In this document: in pieces, positions 1 to 59,897 of the stretch
Position numbering within the stretch: the stretch's first letter is position 1
Layout: the number at the start of each line of letters is the position of its first letter
Source: Chondrosia reniformis
Lineage: Eukaryota > Porifera > Demospongiae > Chondrillida > Chondrillidae
Direction: 5' to 3'
Assembly (NCBI GenBank): GCA_947172415.1
Contig: OX359199.1
Coordinates: 1,948,001-2,012,000, forward strand
DNA: 64,000 bases
Notes under the pieces: model-generated
The model's database searches: none
Told to the model about the DNA's origin: nothing
What the model saw: the letters and a program-made list of their open reading frames with translations, nothing else
Position numbers and translations under genes: made by a program

Positions 1-3000
1 AAATATAGTGGAACAGCCATGAAAAGTAGTTATGACCCGTTTCCTCAGACTTCTTTTTAATTGGCAGATTATTTAGTGTAAATTGCATGTTTAATAATTA
101 TTTTGTCCCCAAAAAGGTTGATTAGTGGGTTGGTGGATTATTGAGATGACACTGTATTAACATTTTGTTTTGTACATACCAACTTATACACTTTAGTCAG
201 AAGGTATCAGCAGTATAGTGAGTTCTTCTATTTAGGAGACTGAAAAGCTTAAGATGTTTCTTGCTGATCATAAAATGGAAGTAGAAAGGCTAGAGGAGTT
301 GAGAGTGCGATTTGAAAATGAACTTGACGAACAAGATGATAAGCTTGAAGTATATATGCACATTTTATGTATTGCCAACTTCATAAAGTTGATTTTTGTG
401 TATTATTCTTCTTCTTCTTTACTTAAGGCTCTTGAAACGGAGAAAAAGCAACAATCGGAAATAATTGCAGATCTCAATTCAGAACTTGAAGAAAAAAAGA
501 CTGTTAATCAGATAAAGTGCACTGTAGAGGTGCATGTTTAACTTAATAAGTCCCAGACTAGGGGGTAATACATGTATATAGATTAGAATAGAAATGGCAA
601 ATGTCATTTCAAGGTCCCCTGTTTATACCAGCCATGACCTATAGGGCTGTACCCATTGTAAAGCAATAATAATAACAATATTAACAATTTCACTCTATCA
701 ATCAATGCAATTAAAATTGAAATATAGTGGAACAGCCTTGAAAAGTAGTTCTGACCCACTTCCTCAGACTTCTTTTACTTGACAGATTATTTAGTGTAAA
801 TTGCATGTTTAATAATTATTTTGTCCTCAAAAAGGCTGATTAGTGGTGTTGGTGGATTATTGAGATGACACTGTATTAACATTTTGTTTTGTACATACCA
901 ACTTATACACTTTAGTCAGAAGGTATCAGCAGTATAGTGAGTTCTTCTATTTAGGAGACTGAAAAGCTTAAGATGTTTCTTGCTGATCATAAAATGGAAG
1001 TAGAAAGGCTAGAGGAGTTGAGAGTGCGATTTGAAAATGAACTTGACGAACAAGATGATAAGCTTGAAGTATATATGCACATTTTATGTATTGCCAACTT
1101 CATAAAGTTGATTTTTGTGTATTATTCTTCTTCTTTACTTAAGGCTCTTGAAACGGAGAAAAAGCAACAATCGGAAATAATTGCAGATCTCAATTCAGAA
1201 CTTGAAGAAAAAAAGACTGTTAGTCAGATTTAGTGCACTGTAGAGGTGCATGCTTAACTTAATAAGTCCCAGACTAGGGGGTAATACATGTATATAGATT
1301 AGAATAGAAATGGCAAATGTCATTTCAAGGTCCCCTGTTTATACCAGCCATGACCTATAGGGCTGTACCCATTGTAAACCAATAATAATAACAATATTAA
1401 CAATTTCACTCTATCAATCAATGGAATTAAAATTGAAATATAGTGGAACAGCCATGAAAAGTAGTTATGACCCACTTCCTCAGACTTCTTTTACTTGACA
1501 GATTATTTAGTGTAAATTGCATGTTTAATAATTATTTTGTCCTCAAAAAGGCTGATTAGTGGGTTGGTGGATGTCGAGATGACACTGTATTAACATTTTG
1601 TTTTGTACATACCAACTTATACACTTTAGTCAGAAGGTATCAGCAGTATAGTGAGTTCTTCTACATATTTAGGAGACTGCAAAGCTTAAGATGTTTCTTG
1701 CTGATCATAAAATGGAAGTAGAAAGGCTAGAGGAGTTGAGAGTGCGATTTGAAAATGAACTTGACGAACAAGATGATAAGCTTGAAGTAAACATGTACAT
1801 TTTATGTATTGCCAACTTCATAAAGTTGATTTTTGTGTATTATTATTCTTTACTTAAGGCTCTTGAAACGGAGAAAAAGCAACAATCGGAAATAATTGCA
1901 GATCTCAATTCAGAACTTGAAGAAAAAAAGACTGTTAGTCAGATTTAGTGCACTGTAGAGGTGCATGCTTAACTTAATAAGTCCCAGACTAGGGGGTAAT
2001 ACATGTATATAGAATAGAATAGAAATGGCAAATGTCATTACAAGGTCCCCTGTTTATACCAGCCATGACTTATAGGGCTGTACCCATTGTAAAGCAATAA
2101 TAATAACAATATTAACAATGTACAAGACGATAAGCTTGAAGTATACATGCACATTTTATGTATTGCCAACTTCATAAAGTTGATTTTTGTGTATTATTCT
2201 TCTTTTTTACTTAAGGCTCTTGAAACGGAGAAAAAGCAACAATCGGAAATAATTGCAGATCTCAATTCAGAACTTGAAGAAAAAAAGACTGTTAGTCAGA
2301 CTTAGTGCACTGTAGAGGTGCATGCTTAACTTAATAAGTCCCAGACTAGGGGGTAATACATGTATATAGATTAGAATAGAAATGGCAAATGTCATTTCAA
2401 GGTCCCTGTTTATACCAGCCATGACCTATAGGGCTGTACCCATTGTAAAGCAATAATAATAACAATAACAACAGTTTCACTATATCAGTCAATGCAATTA
2501 AAATTGAAATATAGTGGAACAGCCATGAAAATTACGTAGTTATGACCCGTTTCCTCAGACTTCTTTTAATTGACAGATTATTTAGTGTAAATTGCATGTT
2601 TAATAATTATTTTGTCCCCAAAAAGGCTGATTAGTGGGTTGGTGGATTATCGAGATGACACTGTATTAACATTTTGTTTTGTACATACCAACTTATACAC
2701 TTTAGTCAGAAGGTATCAGCAGTATAGTGAGTTCTTCTATTTAGGAGACTGAAAAGCTTAAAATGTTTCTTGCTGATCATAAAATGGAAGTAGAATGGCT
2801 AGAGGAGTTGAGAGTGCGATTTGAAAATGAACTTGACGAACAAGACGATAAGCTTGAAGTAAACATGCACATTTTATGTATTACCAACTTAATAAAGTTG
2901 ATTTTTGTGTATTATTCTTCTTCTTTACTTAAGGCTCTTGAAACAGAGAAAAAGCAACAATCAAAAATAATTGCAGACCTCAATTCAGAAGTTGAAGAAA

Positions 3001-4646
3001 AAAAGACTGTTAGTCAGATTTAGTGCACTGTAGAGGTGCATGCTTAACTTAATAAGTCCCAGACTAGGGACATGTATATAGAATAGAATAGAAATGGCAA
3101 ATGTCATTTCAAGGTCCCTCTTTATACCAGCCATGACCTATAGGGCTGTACCCATTGTAAAGCAATAATAATAACAATAACAACAGTTTCACTATATCAG
3201 TCAATGCAATTAAAATTGAAATATAGTGGAACAGCCATGAAAATTACGTAGTTATGACCCGTTTCCTCAGACTTCTTTTAATTGACAGATTATTTAGTGT
3301 AAATTGCATGTTTAATAATTATTTTGTCCCCAAAAAGGCTGATTAGTGGGTTGGTGGATGTCGAGATGACACTGTATTAACATTTTGTTTTGTACATACC
3401 AACTTATACACTTTAGTCAGAAGGTATCAGCAGTATAGTGAGTTCTTCTACATATTTAGGAGACTGAAAAGCTTAAGATGTTTCTTGCTGATCATAAAAT
3501 GGAAGTAGAAAGGCTAGAGGAGTTGAGAGTGCGATTTGAAAATGAACTTGACGAACAAGATGATAAGCTTGAAGTAAACATGTACATTTTATGTAATACC
3601 AACTTCATAAAGTTGATTTTTGTGTATTATTATTCTTTACTTAAGGCTCTTGAAACGGAGAAAAAGCAACAATCGGAAATAATTGCAGATCTCAATTCAG
3701 AACTTGAAGAAAAAAAGACTGTTAGTCAGATAAAGTGCACTGTAGAGGTGCATGTTTAACTTAATAAGTCCCAGACTAGGGGGTAATACATGTATATAGA
3801 TTAGAATAGAAATGGCAAATGTCATTTCAAGGTCTCTGTTTATACCAGCCATGACTTATAGGGCTGTACCCATTGTAAAGCAATAATAATAACAATATTA
3901 ACAATGTACAAGACGATAAGCTTGAAGTATACATGCACATTTTATGTATTGCCAACTTCATAAAGTTGATTTTTGTGTATTATTCTTCTTTTTTACTTAA
4001 GGCTCTTGAAACGGAGAAAAAGCAACAATCGGAAATAATTGCAGATCTCAATTCAGAACTTGAAGAAAAAAAGACTGTTAGTCAGATAAAGTGCACTGTA
4101 GAGGTGCATGTTTAACTTAATAAGTCCCAGACTAGGGGGTAATACATGTATATAGATTAGAATAGAAATGGCAAATGTCATTTCAAGGTCCCCTGTTTAT
4201 ACCAGCCATGACCTATAGGGCTGTACCCATTGTAAAGCAATAATAATAACAATATTAACAATTTCACTCTATCAATCAATGCAATTAAAATTGAAATATA
4301 GTGGAACAGCCATGAAAAGTAGTTATGACCCACTTCCTCAGACTTCTTTTTAATTAGCAGATTATTTAGTGTAAATTGCATGTTTAATAATTATTTTGTC
4401 CCCAAAAAGGCTGATTAGTGGGTTGGTGGATTATCGAGATGACACTGTATTAACATTTTGTTTTGTACATACCAACTTATACACTTTAGTCAGAAGGTAT
4501 CAGCAGTATAGTGAGTTCTTCTACATATTTAGGAGACTGAAAAGCTTAAGATGTTTCTTGCTGATCATAAAATGGAAGTAGAAAGGCTAGAGGAGTTGAG
4601 AGTGCGATTTGAAAATGAACTTGACGAACAAGACGATCTCATTAAA
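1..4646 (+). repeat. Tandem array of exon-bearing units of about 718 bp
   Basis: Full units recur at about 718 bp (A1 to A2 is 719, A2 to A3 is 718, A5 to A6 is 715). Two short units of about 357 bp, around 2119-2475 and 3905-4262, have lost exon A except its last 18 bases but keep exon B. The block of units 3-4-5 recurs as 6-7-8 with a period of about 1786 bp, so there is a higher-order duplication. The sequence at base 1 is already intron of a unit, so the array continues to the left. The last unit (from about 4533) diverges after exon A and joins the single-copy part of the gene, which suggests it is the ancestral unit. Confidence 0.93.
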
Positions 4647-6787
4647 GTACATATGTACCTTCTTTCCACAGACTTTTGCCCACTTAGATGTAAATATTGC
4701 TGAAGCCTAAAGTAAATTTAAAATCTTTTAGTATCTAGCTCCAACATATTTTTATATAATCTATAATATTCCATGTACTTGTAATACACATTCCATTGCT
4801 AAACTAGTCATAAAATGGTGTAATGTTACAATGATATCAAGTAATTTGACCCAACCATCCTTGCTTTGGCTAAAATAACTCTGCCCTGAAGCTAATAACT
4901 ATGTATTACAGCAATACTTCCATCACTTCTTTTACTTAGTATGAGTGTCCTAGTTATTGCAATCAATGAACTTCCTAATTTGAATTACGTACCTCCCTTT
5001 TTGTAATGTCTTCATTAACTGATTCAATACGTAGGCTTTAAGAAAAGATAACGAAGCTCAAACTAAAGAAATTGCAAAACTTAATTCTGAACTAGAAAGA
5101 AAAGTAAAGGTATGCATATGACACTCTCTGAAAATATCTGCACATGAGCATTCCATTATACCTTATACGTGGGTCATTACTTACAGTACTAAGGTGGTAC
5201 CTGATCCATTGCTTTTGGATTGCCTAATTAAGAAGCTGAAGTGTGCTATTTGCATTTATTGTTACTATTTTCCCATCTTTCAAGTTTGGGCATTGCTTTC
5301 ACAGTACCCTAGTAAAACTATCTGTGTATCAGAAGTAGTAGATTGTGTTTTTATTGTGTGAGGTTTTCACTTGTATACGTACATACCTATATATGATTTT
5401 TCTCAGCAAAATAGTTCATCCTGGAAAGATTTACATGGAGAGCCTCAAGTGATAAATCATCCTCTAATAAAGCAACCTGTAAGTCACGAATACTCAATAC
5501 ACATCCTTTTACATTTTATGTGTTCTCTTAAACATTGATAATGGAAATTCATGTTGCTGTAAGGAAGATTTAGTAAATTTTGCAACATGTAGAAATTTTA
5601 ATCAATGAAAGGTAGATAGCTCAGGATTTTGACTATGAGGTATTTTGTTTTAGGATTATAATCAGGTCTTAAGGATGAAAGAATGGCTTAAGGAACAAAA
5701 TATGAGATTGACATCAGAAAGGGATCAGTTGCTTGGGAAAACAGAGGACCTGCTTGAGGAAAATAAAGTACAGTATACATCTTATAGTATATACAGTTCC
5801 CTCTGTAACATATCACTAGATAAAAAGGGATACTTATCTGTATGTAAATTTAGTGTTTGTATAATGTAAAACTTGATATGATAATATTTTCTTCTATCTA
5901 CGTACGTTGCAAAGATTGAACCTTGCAAAATTAATGATGTATTATATCTATTATAGAAATTAAAGGTACACAACAGAAAATTGGAAATATGGCTTCAGAA
6001 ACATCAGCCCCCCTCCAAACAGGTTAGGTCAAAGGTATGTCATTCACATACTAGATTTAAACATGCCTTAGGAAGAGGCCTAAATGTACTGGTTATTACT
6101 GAATAGTTGTCAAAATGTTTGGTTGTATAATTTTAAACTTTGGTTATTGTCGCGCTCATATGAAGTAAACGCAAATATCCTTTTTGCATATTTTCACCAA
6201 GGTGATATGCCTACGTATGTGCATACCTTCATTCAACAATACTTTCTCATTTTCTTCAGGATGCTGTTGGCAGGACTCTTGAAGGACCTATAGGTTTGTT
6301 TAAGTTGCCAAATGATTCACCCTACCAGATTAACTTGTATATTATGTAACAGACACTGTAGGGTACGGTGTTGGCATTACTATGGAAATGGAGAACCTCC
6401 ATTTGCGAAGCAAAATTGGGCTATTCAAGCACAATGAAGAAAAGCTTCTTGCTAAAATGTAAGTTTTGTAGTTGGATATGCATAGCTATTAGGGATTATT
6501 TCTTCCTTTAGTATTACCTCATTTCATACCTCTGTGGATATAGTTAGCAGCTAGCAGATGTGCTAACAGATATGTCTAACAATATGTACTCGGAGGGTTA
6601 CACTGTATCAATAGTTTTTTCTATATTTAAATAGAAAAGAGCTAGAAGAAATGAAATTCAAATCAGATGATGCAAGTGAGAAATACCAGATAAATATAGA
6701 AGAACTTGGGTTTACTGCTTCCAAAGAGTGCCAAACAGATCCAGTTGAAATAGTTGCTTGCCCTGAGGCCTTGGACAAAGTAACTGA
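236..6787 (+). CDS. Coiled-coil protein with tandemly duplicated exon pairs (partial, both ends open)
   Basis: I do not recognise the family. Exon A (114 bp, 38 aa, opens ETEKLKMFLADHK) and exon B (75 bp, 25 aa, opens ALETEKKQQ) alternate, all phase 0 with AG/GT borders. A exons: 236-349, 955-1068, 1673-1786, 2745-2858, 3460-3573, 4533-4646. B exons: 428-502, 1144-1218, 1859-1933, 2216-2290, 2934-3008, 3646-3720, 4002-4076 and a diverged one at 5035-5109. Single-copy exons follow at 5407-5478, 5654-5767 (again 38 aa), 5957-6034, 6260-6293, 6353-6458 and 6635-6787, the last ending in phase 2. The product is rich in E, K and L with a regular a/d pattern, so it should form a long coiled coil. 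The 5' end lies left of the window. No next exon was found after 6787. Seen: ORFs, splice sites, repeats. Inferred: that all copies are spliced into one message. Confidence 0.75.
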
Positions 6788-8200
6788 GTAAGTGAATTAG
6801 ATATATACATAAAACTATGTCGTTACCAAAGTGTGTACCAACTGTGTAGGTCATGCCAAGTGAGACTAGGAAGTGGTTTCTGGGATGAAACTATTACACA
6901 TGAAAAACTTGGTAAATGCGAGCAGCAATAGACATTTACGTACGTATATATATAACAAGTTCTATTAAAATGAAAGGGTATATATAATATATAGGTTTGT
7001 TGTAGAACTGAGCAATTACTATTTACTAATTGCACATTAACACAAACAATCATTGCTAATTATTTTTTCAATCAATTATTGTATAACTTTACATATATGT
7101 GTATAACTATTCATTTGTCATGTTTTAATAGAAAAAAAAAATTAAATGATTAAAATTACAATTTCTAATACATTATTATTTTATTTAACCTATAAGATAT
7201 ATATTATCAAGAAGGAATTATAATATAAATATAAATTAATAAATAATATAATTATAATTTCTAATATAAATTTAAATCTCTCAAATTAGAGAGTTTTGAC
7301 AGATTTTCAAGATACATAGATATTTTCAGGTACCATTCAAAACTGACAATTCATGCAACATATCTCTAGATCTGCATGAGGGACCTTCCCACTTTGAGGT
7401 CATCAACGTAATATTACTACAAATATAAAGACGTTATCATGTGGTCGACCTTCATGCAGGACCTACAGTATATAGAGAGTAAATAACTGCCTATTTCTTT
7501 TTTTATTATCAATTCTTTTAAAATACATTTTCATTTAATGTAGTAATCATGCATCACTTGAACAGGCATATTCTCCACTGTTTCACCTCCAGCTCTAATA
7601 ACTGATCATGTTATGTTGCATTAATATTAGGGAGGAATAAGTTTGGTAATGGTATGTAATTGTTATGGATGGCTGACTAGCTACTTGAGAATATATAGTT
7701 CTGCTATCTCCACACTATCCAAATAACAAGCATCGTATATATGAATGCGTCCAACCAACTGAGAGGAGGTTATTAGACTCTCTTATATTGCTTAATTAGT
7801 TGTACTGATATACAGGGATAACCTTGCTAATATATAGACTAGATGTAGCTATAGTTTATTAGCTATAAAGTAAACACATGCCACAAGGATTATGGTAACT
7901 TTATCAACAACAAATTCTCCTCGGTTTGTGATAACAAGCACACAGCTCATGAAATATGATGAAATATTTATTAGCGTTGTTTTCAACATATACTCATCTG
8001 GTTGTCCGACTATTCGAGGACCATAATATAAGAGAATTGGGGGCTTCCCCTTGAACTACAGCGTCTGCTTTACACACTTATGTATTGTATAGAATCTAAT
8101 ATCTGTAGTATGTATACTATCGGACTAATTCCGAGTGAATTTTGCAATTGATTTACTGGATATACCTATCAAATACCATGACTGAAGGTGTTTTAGTGTC
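6788..8200. other. AT-rich gap without recognised gene
   Basis: No convincing exon is seen here although the upstream coiled-coil gene ends in an open splice donor at 6788. 7060-7290 is very AT-rich with short A/T runs. The rest is unique-looking AT-rich sequence with no clear repeat structure. Confidence 0.5.
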
Positions 8201-15566: not shown

Positions 15567-16397
15567 TCAGATAGAAGAGACAGTTCTATTATTTAACTTC
15601 TGGACACTTCGGAAATTGCAGGATAGACACTCCCCTTCATGCATCTGAATCTTTCTGAGCTTTTGAAGGTAGCTTGATGGGCATTTAATGGGGTTCTTCA
15701 GAACAAACCACTGAACCACCTCAGTACAGGGAGGTGTAGTCAGGGAACCTTCATAGTAATAGTAGTCCAGATTTTCGGGAAGCAGGTCCTTGAATTTAAT
15801 TCCTTCAATGGCAACCTTCTGATTGTAATCTGACGGAATAATAAGCTTCTCCCAGACACCATTCTCGCTTACACTGTCATCTTCTTCACAGAACACTCCA
15901 ACGACACTATAGGCGTCACCATCGGCAGAATTGCCCTGAAGGCCTTCCTTCAAGTTTACAAAATGTATTTCTGCTGAATACTGTTTTCCATCGACAGTAT
16001 GCTCGGATCCTTCTGTTCTGTTCCGTCCCCAGTGGAAGTGGAATTGCTGAACGATGTAGCTGCCAAGGTGATTGGTCAATCCGGCTTTATTAGCACCAGG
16101 AGCAAACAACACAGTATGTCCATTGTTGGTAAGGGAGCCAGACACTTCATCGTTCCACCCGGAGAGCTTTAACTGGATCAAGTTTGCTCCCTTCTGAACC
16201 GCGCTAGGAGTAATGTCTATTGGTGACTGTCTTTTCCCTTCAGAAACACAGCTAGGAAGGTCTTTCCACGAAGCTATATCTTTATATCCCCACTTTGACG
16301 CCATTGAACACTTGTAGAGACGATTCGAAACACGAAATCCTCTACGGCAAAGTCTAGGAATCACGCTAGAATGCCGCCGCAGTAAACTACAAATCAT
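15567..16397 (-). CDS. Alpha-carbonic anhydrase, intronless, probable mitochondrial leader
   Basis: Hydrates CO2 to bicarbonate. The 276-aa single ORF carries one alpha-CA domain (about residues 35-265). The three zinc ligands are H120 and H122 in QFHFHWG and H145 in EIHFVN; the gate Thr is T220 in SLTTPPC; the proton-shuttle His (H64 in human CA II) is H94 in NNGHTVLF. The catalytic set is complete, so activity is expected. The first 31 residues are Arg/Ser-rich without acids (MICSLLRRHSSVIPRLCRRG), like a mitochondrial presequence. An internal Met32 (MASKWGYKD) could start a cytosolic form. It lacks introns while its neighbours have 7 and 20 exons, so an old retrocopy is possible. A TATA-like run lies at 16398-16414 just upstream. 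Confidence 0.95.
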   Translation of the reverse strand: MICSLLRRHSSVIPRLCRRGFRVSNRLYKCSMASKWGYKDIASWKDLPSCVSEGKRQSPIDITPSAVQKGANLIQLKLSGWNDEVSGSLTNNGHTVLFAPGANKAGLTNHLGSYIVQQFHFHWGRNRTEGSEHTVDGKQYSAEIHFVNLKEGLQGNSADGDAYSVVGVFCEEDDSVSENGVWEKLIIPSDYNQKVAIEGIKFKDLLPENLDYYYYEGSLTTPPCTEVVQWFVLKNPIKCPSSYLQKLRKIQMHEGECLSCNFRSVQKLNNRTVSSI

Positions 16398-16429
16398 CGC
16401 GTATATATATATATACGCTTATGTTTTCC

Positions 16430-16998: not shown

Positions 16999-19900
16999 TT
17001 AATGAAGATAGATAACTTCGTCTTTCTTCTTTTTGGACATGACGGTCCCCGGCTTGTGTTGTGCATCTGGGTGATTCAACAACTCTGGGGGACAAGTACT
17101 AGCTGGACTGTTTAGTATTAGCTGCTTCAATTCATAAAACAAAGAGGCGTCTTCTTGAGTTAGGAAAGAGACGGCCACGCCCTCCTTTCCAGCACGAGCA
17201 GTTCGACCTATCCTGTGAGTATAATCTAGATCAAGTGTAGAAAATGATATTTATGTTACACAGTAGGATGGAGAAACTACATTGGGCAACTTATCCAGTC
17301 ACATAAGATTTTGTCATCTCACAGGTAAATTAGGATCGAGTTTGCTCTCCAGATTTACCTTCTATAGACTTTGCCATATCGTAGTTGATAACATGTGAAA
17401 CATCCCTATTGAATGACGAAAGTAAATATAGTTATTGGGCAATCAAACAAATAAAAATATATTAGTATGTATACATGAAAGATTGCTTTGATCAGAACCA
17501 TGCAAAGAATATTTATATATCTTTATGAAGCCTATAGTACCTCTATGTACATAGCTGCATATCACATGCATAGTGCCATTCAAAGATTCAAACATACCTA
17601 CCTACCTAATATCAATACCTCTACCAGCTACATCAGTGGCAACTAAAACATCTTTACTGCCATCTTTCAAACTAGCCAAAGCAAATTCACGTTGCTCCTG
17701 GTTACGACCACCATGAAGTGTGGTAGCTCGATACTGCAATCAAATAGTGAAAGATTTTAAGCATACCAAGAGTTGAGGTACAAACACTGTTACGTATGCT
17801 AGAGCCAAGGTTGTAACAACTTACTCCCAGTTTCTCCAGAGATCGGACAAGTACATCTGCTCCCTTCTTCTGATTAACAAAGATAATGATTGGTGGATCA
17901 ATACCACTGTCGAGGTACTGCAGTAGTAGCTTCCTAATATGGAACAATTAAATTTACACTATTTCAAATTACATATCTACCCTTTTGAATCAACAAAAAA
18001 CCTAACGCATACGGATTATAGTATAAATACCCAAAAATATCATAACTACATGTGCTTTAGGTAATGTACGTATTTGATACATGACACCCTCACAAACAGC
18101 ACATCAAGTCTAAAATATAAAAAGGGTGACAAGTTTTGATCAGTTGGTTAACATCTTCGTTGTGGTACTGTACTAACCGATATACGTATGTACGTACATG
18201 CCTCATAACATGCACTCATTTCCAACCAAACTGGTAATTAAAAGCTTCTTTATAGCCAATGAATACCTTATGGTTGAATGTCCAATTATTGAACTTAATA
18301 CTATACTGATAACTCAATCAGAAGAAATTAACCAAATCAGCAGGAACTGTACGTGTGTTTAACATAACAGGCTAATTAGTATAGAACTTGTGGACAGGAT
18401 CAAGTGTTCAGAACAGCATACCAGCAAAATAATAATATTAAGACATACGTATGTATATTACATGTAGTAGTAGATCACTGCATGTTAATTGTACTCACCG
18501 TTTCTCTCCTTCTCCAACAATATGCACAATCTGCTCCACTTTCTCTGTTGGTTTGCCTACAGATCCGATGTATACTACAGCTGGCCTTCTGAGGTAGGAC
18601 CTGGCAAGCCTCTCTACTGCTGGGGGCATGGTGGCAGTAAACATCACAGTCTGTAGCAACAGGAGGATCAATAGTATGCTGTCATCGATAGCAAGCTGTC
18701 ATCAACAATAAGCTATCAACAACAGTCATCCATACACAACAATAAGCTATCAACAACAGTCATCCACACACAACAATAAGCTATCAACAACAGTCATCCA
18801 CACACAACAATGAGCTATCATCAACAGTCATCCACACACAACAATAAGCTATCAACAACAGTCATCCACACACAACAATAAGCTATCATCAACAGTCATC
18901 CACACACAACAATGAGCTATCATCAACAGTCATCCACACACAACAATGAGCTATCATCAACAGTCATCCACACACAACAATAAGCTATCAACAACAGTCA
19001 TCCACACACAACAATAAGCTGTCAACAACAGTCATCCACACACAACAATAAGCTGTCAACTACAGTCATCCACACACAACAATGAGCTGTCATCAACAGT
19101 CATCCACACACTACAATAAGCTGTCAACAACAGTCATCCACATACAACAATGAGCTGTCATCAACAGTCATCCACACACAACAATAAGCTGTCAACAACA
19201 GTCATCCACACACAACAATAAGCTATCAACAACAGTCATCCACACACAACAATAAGTTGTCAACAACTGTCATCCACACACAACAATAAGCTGTCAACAA
19301 CAGTCATCCACACACAACAATAAGCTATCATCAACAGTCATCCACACACAACAATAAGCTATCAACAACAGTCATCCACACACAACAATTAGCTGTCATC
19401 AACAGTCATCCACACACAACAATGAGCTGTCATCAACAGTCATCCACACACAACAATAAGCTGTCATCAACAGTCATCCACACACAACAATAAGCTGTCA
19501 TCAACAGTCATCCACACACAACAATGAGCTATCATCAACAGTCATCCACACACAACACTAAGCTGTCAACAACAGTCATCCACACACAACAATGAGCTGT
19601 CATCAACAGTCATCCACACACAACACTAAGCTGTCAACAACAGTCATCCACACACAACAATTAGCTGTCAACAACAGTCATCCACACACAACAATTAGCT
19701 GTCAACAACAGTCATCCACACACAACAATTAGCTGTCATCAACAGTCATCCACACACAACAATTAGCTGTCATCAACAATAAGCTGTCATCGATACAGCA
19801 ATACATAATCTCTAAATATGTGTACATAATTAAGACTTGAAATGCATATGTAGAAAGTCCCAATATATAGAAGTCTGTCAGGATAAAGCCTTTTGGTCTA

Positions 19901-22900
19901 ACAATGTCTCCAATAAAGCAGTCACAGCTGTTCATTTAGTAGAGCTCTTTAATTACCTTATTGACAACATTTATGTATGTGTAGACGGTTCTGTATTTAA
20001 GCAATGTGTAGGTATCCCTATGGGTACTGACTGTGCCCCTGTAGTTGCTAATCTTTTTCTGTTTGCCTATGAGTATGGGTTTATGAAAGGACTACTTAAG
20101 GATAACATCACCCTAGCTATTAAATTTTCCAATACTTATAGGTATATTGATGACCTTTTATGTATTAACAACAAGGATTTTGAACTGTCAATTAGTGATA
20201 TTTACCCCAAAGAACTTATTCTTAAAAAGACAAATACCAGCCCTAAAAAATCCCCCTTTTTAGACTTAGATATAACCATTACTAACAATCAATTTATCAC
20301 TAAAGTATATGATAAGCGAGAGGACTTTAACTTTGATATAGTAAATTTCCCCCATTTAGATAGTAATATTCCTAATACCCCAGCCTATGGTGTCTTTATT
20401 TCACAACTAATTAGGTATTCTAGAATATGTAGTGACTTCTCCAGTTTTCAGGCTAAAAGTTTGCAGTTATGCAGTAGGCTTATTAAGCAGGGTTACAAAT
20501 ACTTTAAGCTAAAATCAACCTTTAAAACCTTCCTATCCCGGCAGCCTCTAGTTAGAATCAAGTATAAGCAAAAAGTAGCTAGTATGCTTAAGGACTGTCT
20601 TGTGTTACCCCATATTGTGTTACCCCACCTCCAAAGAAATGTTACTACTAGAAGACCGAAGGGTAGACTTACGTAATATGTCCTACTTGTGTCTATAGTT
20701 ATGCTGAGTCTGTTTTACCTGTACAAGCAAGATTACTAATAGATTTATAATTAATTCATAAAAGTTAATTGGACCTACATTCCTTTCATAAAATTAAATT
20801 TCATCATGTGTCTTAGTTAACACCTTATTTAACTTTTGGCGCCAAAATAGTGTATATAAGGCCCCTAGATTTAGCATAGTGAGCCAAGGATTCACAGAAG
20901 ATCAAGATAAAGAAAAAGACAAAGACTCCCAGGATCACTGATGAAGGGTGGAATTCCCAGAAACGGCTGTCTGACCCAGTGGAGAAGAAGATGAAAGAAG
21001 GGAAAAGAAGGAAGAAAAGACTACTGTATCTTCATCTAAAGCTCTCTTTAGGTTTAGTTCCCCTATAGGCTCTTTTTACAGAATAGGCATATAGCATGTA
21101 GGAAAATGGTATCTTAGATTTTTCATATGTACAAGCAAACTCTTATAAATGACTGTTCTTGGGCTATCTATACAGACAGTGAAACACACCTGTCTGAACC
21201 TGTGCTTAGTTGACCCAATATTAGCTAGCAGCTTCTCTGGATCCTCAGCGTCATCTGTAGTGGGAAGAGAAAGTGTTACCTAGGAAACCACATGATTAAC
21301 ACAGAACGTTTTGGTTTCGTGGACCTTCATCAGCTGAATAGGGGGGTGCACAACTACAGGGTGAATATATAGGGATGGTGCTGTGCCATGAAAACATGTT
21401 TATGAATAGACAATGATCAAAAGGGGAAAATGAGAAATGGAATTAATTAGTTATACATTGTAACTCAGAATGCCTACAGGCAAACCACATACCTGTGTCA
21501 GGCTTTTGATTGGTTACGGATAAATGTCCTAGGATCTTCTGCACTTCGGGCTCAAAACCCATATCTATCATACGATCAGCCTGGAAAACATCAAGTTCAC
21601 ATGCATACAGTAGAGACACTGAATTCTGATCAGCTTAATGGCAGTTAGATGTGCAATGACATAAGGACATCTCTGTACATCAGAATACAGAAGGTTTAGT
21701 CCATCATAACACAATACAATTTCTAGTTTACTTTTAAATTATATACATGTATTCTGCAGTTGAAATGGGTGCATTGGATAGATTGGTCGATGGATGGAGA
21801 GGTGTGAAAAGTACAAATAATGACTTACCTCATCTAACACAACATAGGTGCATCTGCCAAGAACTAGATAACGATTTTCTGTGGGAAAATGAAAATGAAA
21901 ATGATACATCTTAACACTCATAATGTGTGTATAAATAATACTACATATATAAGTATGTCTACTAACATACCTAGGACATCAATAAGTCTGCCTGGGGTAG
22001 CAATAACTATTTCACATCCTTGTCGTAGCTGAAATCCTTGTTCCTCACGAGACAGCTGTGGGATAAAGGAGTGGGAGTAAACAAGTGTTGTGTGAGGAAG
22101 TGTGAGTAAACAAGTGTTGTGTGAGGAAGTGAGTAAACAAGTGTTGTGTGAAGGAGTAGAAGTAAACAAGTGATAGGATGTCATTCTAGGATAGGCATGG
22201 TTTGTGTGTCCATCATATTTACTCCTCCAATTATAGATACTGTTCTTATTCCAAGAGGTTTAGCAAACTTCAGTGTCTCTTCTTCAATCTGTTGTGCCAG
22301 TTCACGTGTTGGGGCAAGAATCAAGGCATATGGACCTTCATCCTCTTCTGCCTCTCTAACCACTTTGGGCAGCTCAGTAATCCACACAAGCAAAGGAATG
22401 ACAAAAGCTGCAGTCTTTCCAGAACCTTGAAGTAAAAGAACATTAAGAGCTCACACAGACAGTAAGTAGAACCAAACCACTCACTGACCCTACCGGCCAC
22501 CATCAACTGTACTGTACATCTGATAAAGCCAGATGCAACATAGTGACAACACAGTACAAGCTATCATGTAACACTTGTGCTTTATAATGATACGGCAGAG
22601 TATTGATTAAATATTCATTGGGAAAGTCAGAGAATATGAAACATATGACAATTACATTTAAGCTTTGATACTATAAAGACAACCCAGGAAGAGTAAGAGT
22701 AGGACACTGGAAACCACAAGTACTATAATTACCTACAAGCCAAGGTTGCATGTTGATCCAACTTCAAATCCTAACAAACCTGTTTCTGCAATGCCAATTA
22801 TATCCCTGTTCTGTAGGCCAATGGGAATGGCCTGTCTCTGAATAGGAGTGGGGTCCTTGTAGTTAAGGTGATCAATTACTTTTAAAATGGAGGAAGGGAT

Positions 22901-28900: not shown

Positions 28901-30102
28901 TATCAAATAACCACACGTTTATGCACACGTACATTACATGATCTATTTATTTGGTATATATATATATACATACTTTTCATCAGATTTCAGCCTTTTTGGC
29001 GAAGTAGACCTGGACCTCCTTCTAACGGGCGACTTTGACCTTCTTCTAGCGGGCGACCTTGACCTTCTTCTAGCTGGCGACCTTGACCTGGATCTTCTTC
29101 TAGCAGGCGACCTTGACCTGGATCTTCTTCTAGCAGGCGACCTTGACCTTCTTCTAGCGGGTGACCTTGACCTTCTTCTAGCGGGTGACCTTGACCTGGA
29201 TCTTCTTCTAGCAGGCGACCTTGACCTGGATCTTCTTCTAGCAGGCGATCTTGACCTTCTTCTAGCGGGTGACCTTGACCTTCTTCTAGCGGGTGACCTT
29301 GACCTGGATCTTCTTCTAGCAGGCGACCTGGATCTTCTTCTAGCAGGCGACCTTGACCTTCTTCTGGCGGGTGACCTTGACCTGGATCTTCTTCTAGCAG
29401 GCGACCTTGACCTTCTTCTAGCAGGCGACCTTGATCTGGATCTTCTTCTGGCAGGTGACCTTGACCTTGACCTTCTTCTAACGGGTGACCTAGATCTTCT
29501 TCTAGCAGGCGACCTTGATCTAGATCTTCTTCTAGCAGGTGACCTTGACCTTGACCTTTTTCTAACAGGTGACCTTGATCTAGATCTTCTAACAGGCGAC
29601 CTTGATTTTGATCTTCTTTGAGCAGGCGACATTGATTTTGATCTTCTTTGAGCAGGTGACCTTGACTTAGACCTCCTTCTAGTAGGTGAACTGGATCGTG
29701 ATCTTCTTTCAGTAGGTGACTCAGATCTACCCTCAGGAGACTTTAAAGATTCATTTTTCTGCTTCTTTGATGTCTTCAGTACTGGTGAACATGATCCGGA
29801 TCGAGATCCACTTTCACGATTCACAGGAGATACTTCTTTGGAGAGCGATCTACAGTAGGAGGACATCACATTTAGTGCAATGCGTATCACATGTACTTTG
29901 TCATATTCACAGTCAGGTCTGGCAAATCTAGGTTTAATACCGAGAAAGCGTTAACTAAGGCGACCAGGCCAACAAACACATAACAAAGTACGACACATGC
30001 ATATAACGTAAACCTTTTCCTGCTCTTGTTCTTTTCCTTTTTTTCTGAACGCTTTTCTGAGGATTTCTGCTTAACTTTCTTAGCAGACTTTTTGGACCCC
30101 AT
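16999..30102 (-). CDS. DDX23: Spliceosomal DEAD-box helicase DDX23/PRP28 with expanded RS domain
   Basis: U5 snRNP helicase that drives the U1-to-U6 switch at the 5' splice site. Twenty exons: 30102-30014, 29849-28974, 28889-28760, 28301-28215, 26191-26137, 24760-24642, 24532-24420, 24347-24204, 23589-23453, 22944-22780, 22425-22223, 22055-21971, 21878-21829, 21580-21493, 21254-21190, 18650-18499, 17933-17825, 17733-17606, 17405-17359, 17225-16999. They sum to 3069 bp (1022 aa; human about 820) with consistent phases. The N-terminus is basic, then a long RS domain, then [21 protein letters not shown] and YKERHQVQF as in human DDX23. Helicase motifs: [43 protein letters not shown]. The C-terminus ([14 protein letters not shown]) matches the family. 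An upstream in-frame Met at 30132 is an alternative start. The extra length comes from the RS exon. Confidence 0.96.
18700..19795. repeat. 34-bp minisatellite in a DDX23 intron
   Basis: About 31 copies of a 34-bp unit containing AATAAGCTATCAACAACAG and TCATCCACACAC, with a few base variants (ATAAG/ATGAG/TTAG, TATC/TGTC, AACA/ATCA). It fills the intron between exons 16 and 15 up to the inserted reverse transcriptase. Confidence 0.95.
19837..20676 (+). CDS. Reverse transcriptase fragment, Penelope-like
   Basis: 279 codons. RT motifs in order: [20 protein letters not shown] (B-like motif), YRYIDDLL with the catalytic aspartate pair, SPFLDLDI, and a family-typical stretch [15 protein letters not shown] followed by [20 protein letters not shown]. 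This layout (GIPMGT, RYIDD, FLDL) recalls Penelope-like elements rather than LINE or LTR RTs, but the assignment rests on eye comparison. The N-terminal fingers are missing and the first Met is probably internal, so this is a truncated copy. Confidence 0.8.
   Translation: MKCICRKSQYIEVCQDKAFWSNNVSNKAVTAVHLVELFNYLIDNIYVCVDGSVFKQCVGIPMGTDCAPVVANLFLFAYEYGFMKGLLKDNITLAIKFSNTYRYIDDLLCINNKDFELSISDIYPKELILKKTNTSPKKSPFLDLDITITNNQFITKVYDKREDFNFDIVNFPHLDSNIPNTPAYGVFISQLIRYSRICSDFSSFQAKSLQLCSRLIKQGYKYFKLKSTFKTFLSRQPLVRIKYKQKVASMLKDCLVLPHIVLPHLQRNVTTRRPKGRLT
20925..20990 (+). ncRNA. Hammerhead-ribozyme-like motif (type I, minimal helix III)
   Basis: The conserved core words occur in the right order: CTGATGA (20938-20944), helix II with GGG and CCC arms, GAAAC (20960-20964), a four-base loop GGCT, then the cleavage triplet GTC (20969-20971). 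Helix I can form between GGATCA before the core and TGACCC after GTC (one A.C mismatch), extended by CCA with TGG. Such minimal hammerheads are known from Penelope-like elements. The usual G10.1-C11.1 pair of helix II is A.A here, so activity is uncertain. Confidence 0.55.
22065..22172. repeat. Short tandem repeat in DDX23 intron
   Basis: Three to four copies of a unit of about 30 bp containing AAACAAGTGTTGTGTGA lie between DDX23 exons 12 and 11. Confidence 0.8.
23155..23300 (-). mobile_element. tRNA-derived SINE, diverged
   Basis: Read on the minus strand: GTTGTAGCTCAGTGGCACAG (A-box region), CACTGGTGATCATAACCACC and a decayed B box, then the family tail with TTTTGTGTTTTTCTC. Its partners are at 34905, 44285, 47390 and 57228. 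It lies in a DDX23 intron. Confidence 0.75.
23595..23850. repeat. Minisatellite of about 36 bp in DDX23 intron 8
   Basis: About seven copies of GTAGAGACTTAATGAAACAG followed by GAAGAGTTAGAGTG, with small variants, beginning just beyond the acceptor of exon 9. Confidence 0.9.
26545..26670 (+). repeat. Dispersed Penelope-like tail with mutated hammerhead-like core
   Basis: CACTGATTAAGGATGG, TATTCCTAGAAAC and CTGTCTGGCCCAATGA align base for base with the core at 20936-20980, including the GAAAC box, the four-base loop and GTC; the CTGATGA box reads CTGATTA. CATCCAAAGCTCT follows as in the other copies. Lies in a DDX23 intron. Confidence 0.7.
27010..27430. mobile_element. Foldback element with nested hairpins in DDX23 intron
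   Basis: GAGGTGTATATGGGTTT (about 27047) pairs with AAACCCATATACACCTC (about 27098). A second hairpin pairs GGATATAACAGGATTTAAGA (about 27322) with TCTTAAATCCTATTATATCC (about 27362). Between them an open stretch reads [20 protein letters not shown] (about 27206-27265), cysteine-rich and protein-like. Likely a non-autonomous element that carries a piece of a gene. Ends not resolved. Confidence 0.55.
27570..27735. repeat. Tandem repeat of about 42 bp in DDX23 intron
   Basis: Four copies of GGTAAAATGATAAATTATTA followed by ATTGATTACAGCCCTTT, the last one diverged. Confidence 0.9.
28975..29730 (-). repeat. Coding minisatellite encoding the DDX23 RS domain
   Basis: Within exon 2, units of 18 and 24 bp encode [11 protein letters not shown] and SPARRRSR over and over, flanked by less regular [15 protein letters not shown] and SPTRRRSKS. 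Both unit sizes are multiples of three, so copy-number change keeps the frame. Arg-Ser dipeptides are substrates of SR protein kinases; human PRP28 is phosphorylated in its RS domain by SRPK2. Confidence 0.95.
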
Positions 30103-43214: not shown

Positions 43215-43846
43215 ATGGGGTGCTGTAGTAGTACAGAATCCGGTAAGCTAAATCAGTACATTTTGTGATTCATTTTTACTTTGGAGTCAGTACCATGTTT
43301 GTCACTTTACGCTAAAGAAACGATTAATCTCATATCAAACTCATCTCTGCTAATTCGTTACCTACGTATTTAGGTACAGACAGTAATGCTGCTGCTCCCA
43401 CTGACGGTTTTATCCAAGAAATTATTGACGTTCACAACGAATTGAGGGCACGCCACAATGTCCCGGCGCTAGTTGCCGATGTTCGAGCCACTAAAGCAGC
43501 GCAGGAATGGGCCGAAGAGTTGTACAAGATAAACATATTAAAACACGGTAACCATGAAGGTATGGGTCAGAATCTCTTCAGTAATGTAGGAGCAGAGGTC
43601 TCCGCTAGAAAAATAGTCGAATACTGGTATTCCGAGGTTAAGAGCTACGATTTTAACAATCCCGGATTTAGTCCGGATACTGGTCACTTTACTCAATTGG
43701 TTTGGAAGGACACGACTGGAATTGGAGTGGGTCGCGTGTACAAGAACAGAAGGGGGTTTGTTGTTTGCAATTATGTTCCACCTGGAAACGTAGCAGTAGT
43801 TGGACGGAGTAGCTATGTGGAGAATGTGCTGCAACCTCAACATTAG
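43215..43846 (+). CDS. GLIPR2: CAP-superfamily protein, GLIPR2/GAPR-1-like, predicted lipid-anchored
   Basis: Exons 43215-43242 and 43374-43846 (501 bp, 166 aa). Exon 1 encodes MGCCSSTES, a strong N-myristoylation signal (Gly2, Ser at 6) with two adjacent cysteines for palmitoylation; human GAPR-1 is itself myristoylated and Golgi/raft-bound. The CAP domain is close to GAPR-1: HNELRARHNVPAL, ILKH, WYSEVKSYDFNNPGF, TGHFTQLVWK, GVGRV, FVVCNYVPPGNV and a C-terminal ENVLQPQH. The CAP His residues (ILKH and GHFT) are kept, but the Glu of the usual GENL motif is Gln here (GQNL). No signal peptide, so cytosolic face. GLIPR2 is the nearest family, assigned by eye. Confidence 0.9.
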
Positions 43847-45048
43847 AATTCACATGTCCAATTTAATTCATTGCAATCTATTCAAGAATTAAACAACACA
43901 AATGAAAATCAATGCATTTATTTTGCTGTATAGAACACCCATTGTCATATGTACATATAGCAATCTATTTATTTTAATTTGATTCAAATTGTAGTAGTCT
44001 TTCAACTTTGAATATATCGGAAATTTGACAGCGAATTTATTTTGGCGGATTAAGCAATCTGCCAAAATGTCAACCACCAAACTACACCGAGTGTAGGAGA
44101 ACTGTATTGTCAGTAAAATCTGCATAATTTGAGCAATCTGCCAACATTTTTCCTGATATTCCAATATGTGGTATATATGGGCCAACTTATTTAAAGACTT
44201 ATTAGAGCTGCAGTCTCTATTTAGCATTAAAAACTACAGTACTCTATTCCCAACCCTGTCAACTTCTGAAAACCCATTCATAATTTGCAGTTGTAGCTCA
44301 GCACTGGTGTTCATAACCAGCTGTCCTTGGTTCAATTCCAAGCAATTGCTTGTTTTTCTTTTTTACTTCATGATCTTTGTGAATGATCTACTTGTGGTTT
44401 GTTTATCACTTTGATTATTCATGCATGTATGTGACATAATGAATTCTTTTATTGATCAAATTACCTTGAGGTCATGTCTTTTAACTATAGCTACATTTTC
44501 TGGCTTCCAAAATGAAGTTTCCTTGAAGAAAAATGTCTGAAATAAGATCCAGTTTCTAGACTTAGAGTTGGTCATTGTTTAAAGCCTAATTTAATCAACT
44601 TCTAGTGGCAAGGTAACTTCACCAATTAGCCAATCAGTTTGCTTCTCAGTGTACCCAATGGTACCCCTAATTCTCTAATTGTTGTACCCAATATGTAAGT
44701 TGATTCTAATGACACTGTAAAGTTGACTGGGCCCTATGAGACCAAAGACTGCCTGTACCACTTAATTAAATTACCCATAGCTCTGATGCAGCAATATGTA
44801 CATATTAGTTTCTTACTTTACATTTACTTCTTAAAACCAATGTTATCAAAATTTGTTTTTCTGAAACTTAAAAAACATATATAACTATATCTATACCTAG
44901 ATCTATAAGTGTTCAATAGTTACTTGAATGCTTTGATTTATTGTCTTACAGTCTTAATGTACATATACATAACTATTGCTTTGTTGCAATGTTTGTATAA
45001 TTTGAGAGGTGCACATTGCTTTACTCACTTGCTGCCACAATTCCATAG
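43847..45048. other. Gap between the two CAP genes
   Basis: Contains the SINE at 44285-44415. No second MGCC-type first exon for the CAP gene at 45049 could be found. Otherwise unique AT-rich sequence. Confidence 0.6.
44285..44415 (+). mobile_element. tRNA-derived SINE, plus strand
   Basis: GTTGTAGCTCAGCACTGGTG, ATAACCAGCTGTCC, then GGTTCAATTCCAAGC and the shared tail ending in CTACTTGTGGTTTG. The A-box region has a deletion compared with the copy at 34905. Confidence 0.8.
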
Positions 45049-45671
45049 GGTATACTCCTACTAAAATGGATATTGGAGAAAATGACGGATCTACTGACAG
45101 TATATCCACTTTGCTTTCAGTGGAACCATCAGCCACTCAACCTCAGGATACAAGTTACTTTAAACTAGACAGCTTTGACCAAACCATGCTTGAAATGCAC
45201 AATAGCTTTAGACAGTCTCATCAGTGTCAGGCGTTAAATTGGTCAAATGAATGTGCAGTGTCAGCATTAACTTTAGCAGAACACATGGCAATAAACAATA
45301 CCCTAAAGACGTACCCCACTAAGAACTATGGCCAGAACATTGCCTTCTTTGCCTCCATTAATTTTGGAACATCTGATGTATATTGTGTGTACAATAGTCT
45401 CTCTGAAAAAGTTGTTGCTCAATATATATGCAACTTGTGGTACAATGAAAGCTCTCACTATGACTACAATGACACCTTTGAGAACAATGACATGAACCCA
45501 GTTGGCCATTTCACTCAAATGATTTGGAAGGATTCAAAGGAATTAGGGACGGCTAGAATCACAAGAGACAATCGTACATTCATAGTGGCCATATACAAAC
45601 CACCTGGGAATATTCCTGGCCAGTATAAACACAATGTATTGAAGAGACATAATCATGAACCTCTAGATTAG
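45049..45671 (+). CDS. Second CAP-superfamily gene, diverged
   Basis: The exon opens after CCATAG at 45049 in phase 1, the same phase as exon 2 of the CAP gene at 43215. Reads GYTPTKMDIGENDGSTDS, an acidic/Ser-rich linker of about 40 residues, then a CAP domain: LEMHNSFRQSHQCQALNWS, NYGQNIAFF, LWYNESSHYDYND, VGHFTQMIWKDS, FIVAIYKPPGN. It is much less like GAPR-1 than its neighbour and has an insertion with Cys before LWYN. The His in GHFTQ remains; the GENL Glu is Gln again. Either translation starts at Met 45066, or an upstream exon supplies the start. No such private exon was found. 45663-45671 encodes the end (EPLD would be the last residues). SOAT-B starts 308 bp downstream. Confidence 0.75.
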
Positions 45672-59044: not shown

Positions 59045-59897
59045 CTAAGTAGTTTGAGAGCTACTGAATTGCAAATACACAATTACTCCTACAATAATAT
59101 TTGACAATATGCCAAGCACAATTGAAACTAAATTAAATACTTTTGCTTTCCTAGCAAAATGAGCAGCTTCACTTGGCCTTCCACTGTCAGCAAGAGAGTT
59201 AGCCTACATAATTATATAGGTGTAAAAAGTATCCATACATGCATGTGCCTCTATATATCTATATATAACAGCCAAGTTTGAAAACAACATTATACATATA
59301 TCAGTTAATCAATTACCTTGACACTGGAGATGATGGCTGCCACACCAAATGGAAGACAGCAACAGAATGTAGTAAATACGGATAGTATTATAAGACCAAT
59401 ATAAGAGGTTTCCCCTGCACTGTCTATGTGGTTTCGTGGTGCATACGCTTGTCTTACAACCGGCTGTGAGTATATAACATTAGCAGTAGATTGGACTTCT
59501 CCAGTCCTGTCAGGTAAAGGTTCATTCTCTGTTTTAAGATTCTGTACACTATCATGAGTTGCTGCTCCACTTTGAACTTCTGGTTCAGTGTATCCATCTT
59601 GTTCTCTTGGAGTGTAAGCTGGGGGACCATTAGTTGAAGCTGAGGAAGATGCTGTGAAAATATAAACGTACGTATATAGCATAATGATTATATGTATATT
59701 ATCATTTTCCTATAATTTATATGTAGGTACAAAACTTATGATAAATATATGGCAAGCCTATATGTTCTAAACATTCAGCATGCAGATTCAAATTGAATGC
59801 ATGTACATATATAAATGGTTTAATCTCCCTATTAATTTTCTATAAAATACTTACAAGATTGCATTATCTGGGCTTGGCTCCAATATTCAGAATCCAT
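59045..59897 (-). CDS. CD225/dispanin family membrane protein 1
   Basis: Exons 59897-59855, 59651-59317, 59203-59045 (537 bp, 178 aa). A proline/polar N-terminal half with PPAYTPREQ (a PPxY-type WW-binding motif) is followed by the CD225 core: the first hydrophobic helix YIGLIILSVFTTFCCCLPFG and VAAIISSVKV, with a Cys cluster typical of S-palmitoylation in IFITM/dispanin proteins, then a loop GRPSEAAHFARKAK and a second hydrophobic helix VFNLVSIVLGILSNIIVGVI. Two-helix topology is as in IFITM, PRRT and SynDIG proteins. A single protein cannot be assigned to one vertebrate subfamily. Confidence 0.88.

Follow-up and report, generated by a model that had tools for sequence, protein, structure and literature searches.

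How a rod-shaped protein can change its length while its neighbouring coils stay in phase is the question raised by an array of short repeated exons in the sponge Chondrosia reniformis. The array begins upstream of, and continues into, the window, by which the whole stretch of 64,000 nucleotides (nt) analysed here is meant (C11:1948001-2012000, read on the plus strand; the contig C11 has 7,633,987 bases, and the genome searched comprises 117,379,552 bases in 15 contigs). Exon A (114 nt, 38 amino acids (aa)) and exon B (75 nt, 25 aa) alternate in units of about 716 bp. The array probably encodes a stalk of variable length in a CENP-E-like kinesin, K3, and exchange of exon pairs appears to have altered this length.

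To judge from the DNA, K3 belongs with K1 and K2 to a set of three tandem, near-identical paralogs that differ in the count of rod-coding exon pairs. Their arrays share the plus strand and occupy C11:1904409-1911933 (K1), C11:1928034-1933799 (K2), and C11:1946272-1953109 (K3, partly inside the window). An initial annotation of the window had let the array start at position 236, but the first exon B actually lies at C11:1946272, window position -1728, and in all three exons B, this one included, and two exons A of K3 stand upstream of the window. The same annotation regarded every copy as an A+B pair, which holds for six of the eight modules in the window but not for the two with exons B at 2216 and 4002, where exon A is missing. 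In window positions, the array and the tail exons are as follows.

1-235, plus strand: intron upstream of the first exon A of the window, adjoining the upstream array part of K3
236-349, plus strand: exon A, 38 aa; AG/GT flanks, length a multiple of three
428-502, plus strand: exon B, 25 aa, donor gttaat; AG/GT flanks, length a multiple of three
955-1068, plus strand: exon A, 38 aa; AG/GT flanks, length a multiple of three
1144-1218, plus strand: exon B, 25 aa, donor gttagt; AG/GT flanks, length a multiple of three
1673-1786, plus strand: exon A, 38 aa; AG/GT flanks, length a multiple of three
1859-1933, plus strand: exon B, 25 aa; AG/GT flanks, length a multiple of three
2216-2290, plus strand: exon B of a module without exon A, just a 3' stub of A being left in the upstream intron
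2745-2858, plus strand: exon A, 38 aa; AG/GT flanks, length a multiple of three
2934-3008, plus strand: exon B, 25 aa, five substitutions relative to the consensus
3460-3573, plus strand: exon A, 38 aa; AG/GT flanks, length a multiple of three
3646-3720, plus strand: exon B, 25 aa; AG/GT flanks, length a multiple of three
4002-4076, plus strand: exon B of the second module without exon A; AG/GT flanks, length a multiple of three
4533-4646, plus strand: last exon A, codons 36-38 deviating; AG/GT flanks, length a multiple of three
5035-5109, plus strand: last exon B, diverged, ending the array
5407-5478, plus strand: tail exon t1, with a proline-containing break past the array rod
5654-5767, plus strand: tail exon t2, coiled-coil-like by eye
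5957-6034, plus strand: tail exon t3
6260-6293, plus strand: tail exon t4
6353-6458, plus strand: tail exon t5
6635-6791, plus strand: tail exon t6 with the stop TAA, overlapping a good donor

The three arrays differ in layout. K1 reads B A38B A38B A35B A38B A38B A35B A38B A35B A38B A38B, with exons A of 38 or 35 aa, K2 reads B AB AB AB AB B AB AB AB, and K3 reads B AB AB AB AB AB B AB AB B AB. Exon A is thus present 10, 7, and 8 times in K1, K2, and K3, and exon B 11, 9, and 11 times. The predicted array rods comprise 646, 491, and 579 aa, or 95.9, 72.9, and 86.0 nm at the helical rise of 0.1485 nm per residue. The departures from the plain pair number three B-only modules (two in K3, one in K2) and three 35-aa exons A, all of them in K1. 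In the B-only modules, the intron passes at the same junction from 'aacaat' directly into GTACAAGACGATAAGCTTGAA, which is the 3' end of the shortened, K1-type exon A, and a short AAT is common to both sides of this junction. The right edge of the array falls within the last exon A, which is array-like to codon 35 and unique beyond. The last B, off the consensus at 30 of its 75 nt and preceded by a unique 388-nt intron, is an old diverged copy that closes the array.

Each array is preceded by 14 motor-part exons (e1-e13b, including e13a) and followed by the six tail exons t1-t6; in K3 the motor exons lie upstream of the window at C11:1942025-1945924. When 13 of the 14 exons are joined, e13a being omitted, the motor parts of K1-K3 are free of stops, as are all three tails, and the predicted whole proteins have 1318, 1163, and 1251 aa. 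The K1 motor matches the Pfam Kinesin profile PF00225 with 329.4 bits (cut-off 29.3). GQTATGKT, NDRSSRSH, and DLAGSE, which we take to be the P-loop, switch I, and switch II, are found in the motors of K1-K3. Among solved structures, CENP-E ranked first for the motor with 278 (PDB 1t5c) and 272 bits, followed by KIF3B with 247. A control kinesin at C7:2805161-2806138, the sole kinesin frame of the genome to span the Pfam profile completely in one hit, scored OSM-3 first (469 bits) and CENP-E at 256. K1-K3 are accordingly described as CENP-E-like kinesins, a provisional class assigned by bit scores.

The DNA of the arrays carries several marks of exchange. Copies differ on average by 3.2% in the large intron and by 5.7% in the short A-B intron, in averages that omit the three last exons B, the three 388-nt introns, and the three B-B introns; the near-identity of intron sequence pointed out in the initial annotation is thereby borne out. 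The mean difference of array segments is thus 3.2 to 5.7%, whereas between K1, K2, and K3 the motor parts differ by 0.12-0.50% in exons and 0.31-0.52% in introns, and the tails by 0.16-0.94% in exons and 0.09-0.62% in introns. Positional orthology of units between the paralogs was sought by unit comparison in K1-K3 and not found. The first units of K1, K2, and K3 mutually differ at 15 to 19 sites, and the closest pairs are out of position (K2u2-K3u3, K2u4-K3u8, and K1u4-K1u7 with 5 differences each, K2u3-K2u7 with 7). Matches were listed where they lay outside the arrays and reached at least 150 nt.

At the array edge, paralog divergence climbs about 7- to 9-fold. The adjoining flanks (introns and last B) show 3/811, 3/815, and 2/815 differences in the three paralog pairs, against 44/1267, 32/1272, and 27/1272 in the first plus last units (Fisher p = 4.3e-7, 7.4e-5, and 1.5e-4). 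Either the arrays diverged through import of foreign units, or the flanks were recently homogenised while the arrays kept older differences, and both readings need exchange. Linkage points in the same direction. Over 25 of the 28 units, the three B-only units being left out, r2 (the squared correlation) between informative sites falls from 0.281 below 25 nt to about 0.06 above 200 nt, all four combinations occur in 906 of 1830 informative site pairs, and none of 2000 permutations matched the observed correlation. This result is independent of divergences in windows far from the arrays, and by this evidence the units are mosaics produced by recombination or gene conversion. A stretch A35-B-A38-B is present three times in K1, and two of these are closely alike, with 5 differences between u4 and u7 and 11 differences plus 4 gaps between u3 and u6, which would fit exchange in steps above one module.

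Unequal crossing-over and gene conversion, acting on units of about 716 bp inside each of K1-K3 as well as from one gene to another, would be the means by which modules are gained and lost. The earlier proposal that the rod evolved in length by unequal exchange is well supported at the DNA level by module counts, linkage decay, and the edge step. Its narrower form, exchange between introns, needs correction, for the breakpoints are not solely intronic, the right edge lying inside exon A.

Other origins of the repeats were considered and set aside. An assembly artefact is judged unlikely, since the figures given for odChoReni1.1, 10.31 Gb in 0.80 M HiFi reads (PMC12181767), imply a mean read longer than any of the arrays, which measure 5.8-7.5 kb; there are no Ns in 124 kb, and three different arrays share a single gapless stretch. 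Haplotypic duplication as the source of K1-K3 is disfavoured by the assembly, in which the copies share this stretch but differ in unit content. A 1787-bp higher-order repeat was tried for K3, where the order AB-B-AB is seen again with 98% identity over 300 nt, but K3u5 and K3u8 differ at 21 sites and so point to a mosaic and not to plain block duplication.

The exon lengths agree with the initial annotation, 38 plus 25 residues making 63, or nine heptads. One length in seven would be divisible by 7 by chance, and support for the register must therefore come from hydrophobicity. The best of the seven registers on the consensus module places a/d at 2, 5, 9, 12, 16, and so on, the very series (5, 9, 12, 16 ... 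61) proposed before. Its mean Kyte-Doolittle value at a/d is 1.04, and the residue set applied counts 11 of the 18 such positions in each module as hydrophobic. Of 20000 shuffles, 54 attain the observed mean in their own best register. Exon A alone and exon B alone favour the same register (chance 1/7), and hydrophobic residues recur with a period of 3.53 in A and of 3.495 when four modules are joined.

The register had also been said to run on unbroken. A38+B does stay in phase, but K3 shifts twice by +4, K1 three times, and K2 once. A35+B (60 aa) and B alone (25 aa) each amount to +4 mod 7, so that the two kinds of change observed, loss of exon A and a 9-nt deletion in exon A, are both stutters, a class of shift that coiled coils are able to accommodate by forming a hendecad. 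From two kinds of event, a rule of 'only 0 or +4 mod 7' is suggestive only. The array is flanked by proline-containing stretches, YPNPEVEV in e13b before it and HPLIKQP in t1 after it. Because the segment is bounded by such breaks, the length of the rod and its final register would be free of the neighbours; the rod may change both without putting neighbouring coils out of phase, and this would explain why length changes are tolerated.

All 56 array exons of K1-K3 have a length that is a multiple of three, with AG before and GT after, so the reading frame survives any number of exons A and B. The claim that all copies keep their frame and splice sites is nevertheless only partly right, because the modules without A and the A35 exons alter module length. 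We infer that every module is included in the mRNA, in which case each extra pair would add about 9.4 nm (63 x 0.1485 nm) to a stalk formed as a dimeric coiled coil. Exon B ends on the donor gttagt in 27 of 31 copies, on gttaat in one, and on gtatgc in the three last copies. The less usual gttagt also closes motor exons e1 and e10; the alignment to CENP-E runs across the e10 junction, and the e1 junction is based on the reading frame only. A longer exon B, reading beyond gttagt to gtgcat, was also tried. It meets an in-frame stop in 12 of the 28 repeated copies (atttag in nine; aattag, acttag, and gttagttag in one each), and it was dropped because of these stops and because the last B terminates at the same place.

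The same exon boundaries allow a different reading, which is unlikely, namely that the A-B intron is often retained, so that A, intron, and B form one exon of 87-89 aa (84-86 where A35 is present), in which the insert, hydrophobic and aromatic, breaks the coil. All 22 short A-B introns (e.g., 350-427 and 1069-1143) measure 72, 75, or 78 nt, multiples of three without an in-frame stop, and retention would therefore leave the frame intact. The stretch inserted would be of 24-26 aa and hydrophobic. The exon A donor gtaaac is weak, and a precedent is described for chicken BG1, in which an unspliced intron supplies a functional immunoreceptor tyrosine-based inhibitory motif (PMC4046983). Against retention, the A-B intron is the most divergent part (0.057), and when read as codons it has a ratio of nonsynonymous to synonymous change (pN/pS) of 2.10, from 12 nonsynonymous and 2 synonymous changes, which gives no sign of constraint on a protein. 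Moreover, the last A and last B are separated in all three genes by the 388-nt intron, which contains stops.

The array exons proper give weak indications of constraint at the protein level. pN/pS is 0.47 for A (0.36 without the last copies) and 0.20 for B, and it rises to 0.78 and 4.35 for A and to 1.38 and 1.89 for B in the wrong frames. These values bear on another reading, that of a neutral intragenic satellite, with most modules skipped or with K1-K3 beginning to decay. A decayed relative, K4, does exist on the same chromosome, from C11:3845837 to 3850790. Its motor is interrupted by stops, splice sites have been lost, e13 is present in one copy only, and the similarity ends after B-A-B. 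Two more fragments lie at C11:2288615-2289923 and C11:2726905-2725269. The neutral reading is nevertheless quite unlikely, since pN/pS lies below 1 for both exons, none of the 53 repeated exons (25 A and 28 B) contains a stop or frameshift, motors and tails of K1-K3 are open when joined, and a single type of exonic indel (9 nt, in frame) contrasts with ten types in the 466 columns of the large intron. From K4, tandem B-A-B units are likely to be older than the triplication of K1-K3, and the present differences in count would be younger than the split of K1-K3 or of their arrays.

Mutually exclusive splicing, with exons chosen singly and stalk length unaffected by the array, is known for tandem duplicated exons in animals (PMC9741552; PMC6071210) but is very unlikely here, because the copies are nearly identical in protein and the choice would yield little diversity, because A and B are two alternating kinds, and because exons that are all multiples of three hold no frame guard against joint inclusion.

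Several observations weigh against the main reading, and some of them favour the neutral satellite. Nucleotide diversity in the exons (0.038 and 0.034) is no lower than in the large intron (0.032). No recent purifying selection on the motors or tails of K1-K3 was visible in the comparison of exon with intron differences; the K1-K2 motors have 6/1608 differences in exons versus 9/2342 in introns, which are similar rates, and tail exons differ no less than tail introns. Distinct changes in A and B together are 9 synonymous and 13 nonsynonymous against an expected nonsynonymous share of 0.777, a marginal result (P = 0.039). In this count, from which the last A of each gene and 7 exon A codons are omitted, B alone gives P = 0.019 and A alone P = 0.36. 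In 18 of 25 exons A the donor is gtaaac, which is weaker than 18 of the 20 constitutive donors of the gene, as scored with a matrix built from those same 20. The hydrophobic period of exon B alone peaks at 3.75, off 3.5, and coiled-coil formation was judged by the hydrophobic-register test on the consensus module. Finally, 800-base windows farther from the arrays differ by up to 1.5% (K1-K2) and 2.9% (K2-K3), and if the flanks were recently homogenised, the arrays would have changed with less speed.

The reading of the array as a variable kinesin stalk probably holds for K3. Its extension is more tentative, although possible: K1-K3 may form a series of stalk lengths (about 96, 73, and 86 nm) in which the number of modules is still changing fast, perhaps among individuals, under the 0 or +4 rule.

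Exon arrays varied by recombination have precedents in chicken and in a ciliate. As described in PMC4046983, the chicken BG genes also possess many small exons, of 7 (sometimes 8) residues, that form a tail capable of coiled coil, and they are tandem paralogs in the same orientation with unequal crossing-over and exchange between genes and with in-frame unspliced introns. They differ in having one heptad (21 nt) per exon and in building the cytoplasmic tail of a receptor, in contrast to the nine-heptad exon pair, the motor stalk, and the +4 shifts of the sponge; the unequal crossing-over described there is placed at the level of genes and not of heptad exons. None of the sponge exons is a single heptad, for they have 38 (or 35) and 25 aa, and just the 38+25 pair equals 9 x 7. 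In Tetrahymena thermophila, leucine-rich repeat (LRR) genes contain arrays of 90-bp exons, the number of which ranges from 1 to 51, with similar introns and ectopic recombination within and between genes (PMC6564038). Copy number driven by recombination is likewise indicated in the sponge by module counts, mosaic units, and the edge step. In the account of the ciliate genes, however, the product is a leucine-rich repeat and not a coiled coil, the unit is a single exon, the introns are in phase 2, and there is a link to retrotransposons. NBPF genes also multiply a domain, Olduvai, coded by an exon doublet, but as reported in PMC9313022 this takes place in six-exon blocks of about 4.7 kb, outside the kinesins, in a primate expansion.

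CENP-E, a kinesin-7, offers the N-terminal motor with the best bit score among solved structures (PDB 1t5c). It has a discontinuous coiled-coil stalk (PMC7475649), as the sponge proteins would by their heptad register and flanking prolines. CENP-E is described as a protein of 316 kDa, compared with the 1163-1318 aa predicted here, and the sponge proteins, which have a stalk of repeated modules, all end in ALDKVTE, without the CaaX box for farnesylation. According to PMC5082667, other regions vary 3.6 times more in length than coiled coils do, and the stalk lengths of kinesin-1 and kinesin-5 are strongly conserved. When its stalk is artificially shortened or exchanged, CENP-E fails to rescue chromosome misalignment, with the caution of the authors that these constructs are possibly defective for other reasons (PMC7475649). 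No comparable array in a kinesin was found among the matches listed from the open-access literature. What appears to be new is a unit made of an exon pair, in which neither exon is a whole number of heptads and the pair makes nine, and the use of such an array to build a motor stalk, so that three sister motors have nearly the same head and tail and three different stalks. Nature seems to run an experiment on stalk length in three genes whose motors differ by few amino acids. If true, this would be a natural length series in a class of proteins described as strongly conserved in stalk length. The pair of exons with lengths in multiples of three, the whole-heptad module, and the breaks on both sides provide a concrete DNA mechanism for stepwise change of a stalk, and the locus offers a system for testing length, register, and function.

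Further details concern the ends of the kinesin genes. The first motor exon gave nothing in a motif scan and was then spotted by reading translations. Upstream of the array in K1, K2, and K3, tandem duplication of 223 bp has produced the additional in-frame exon e13a, of 150 nt, which duplicates the stretch with TRVSKQALRRASF; in K1 it lies at C11:1903536-1903685 (L010:5536-5685), with its donor gtatgt on the duplication junction. The tail stop TAA (window 6785-6795) overlaps a consensus donor, GA/gtaagt, and an extra 3' exon or a longer tail isoform of the kinesin is possible. In the intron preceding the first exon B of K1 (L010:6062-6408), TTATCCGAACC motifs are repeated, nearly the same in K2 and K3. 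This intron stands at the position in which one would look for a first exon A, and the motifs resemble a small DNA transposon. Elsewhere in the genome, at C3:6937143-7217456, about a dozen kinesin motor fragments stand in tandem over 280 kb as another local expansion.

The rest of the window holds several unrelated features. At 15567-16418, on the minus strand, a single open frame codes for a carbonic anhydrase (Pfam, 212 bits). At 18703-20676, a 34-bp tandem repeat of 31.6 copies directly precedes a 280-aa open frame that looks by eye like a reverse transcriptase, with a Pfam polymerase match below threshold (19.6 bits, cut-off 23.9). The 335-aa open frame at 28943-29950, on the minus strand, is repeat-rich, SR-type by eye, and without a Pfam match at 0.001, and its DNA is a minisatellite in which several periods occur (24-108 bp). 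Neighbouring CAP-domain (PF00188) frames occupy 43328-43846 and 45006-45671, and the frame at 59305-59709 on the minus strand matches CD225 in part (31.1 bits, cut-off 27.1).

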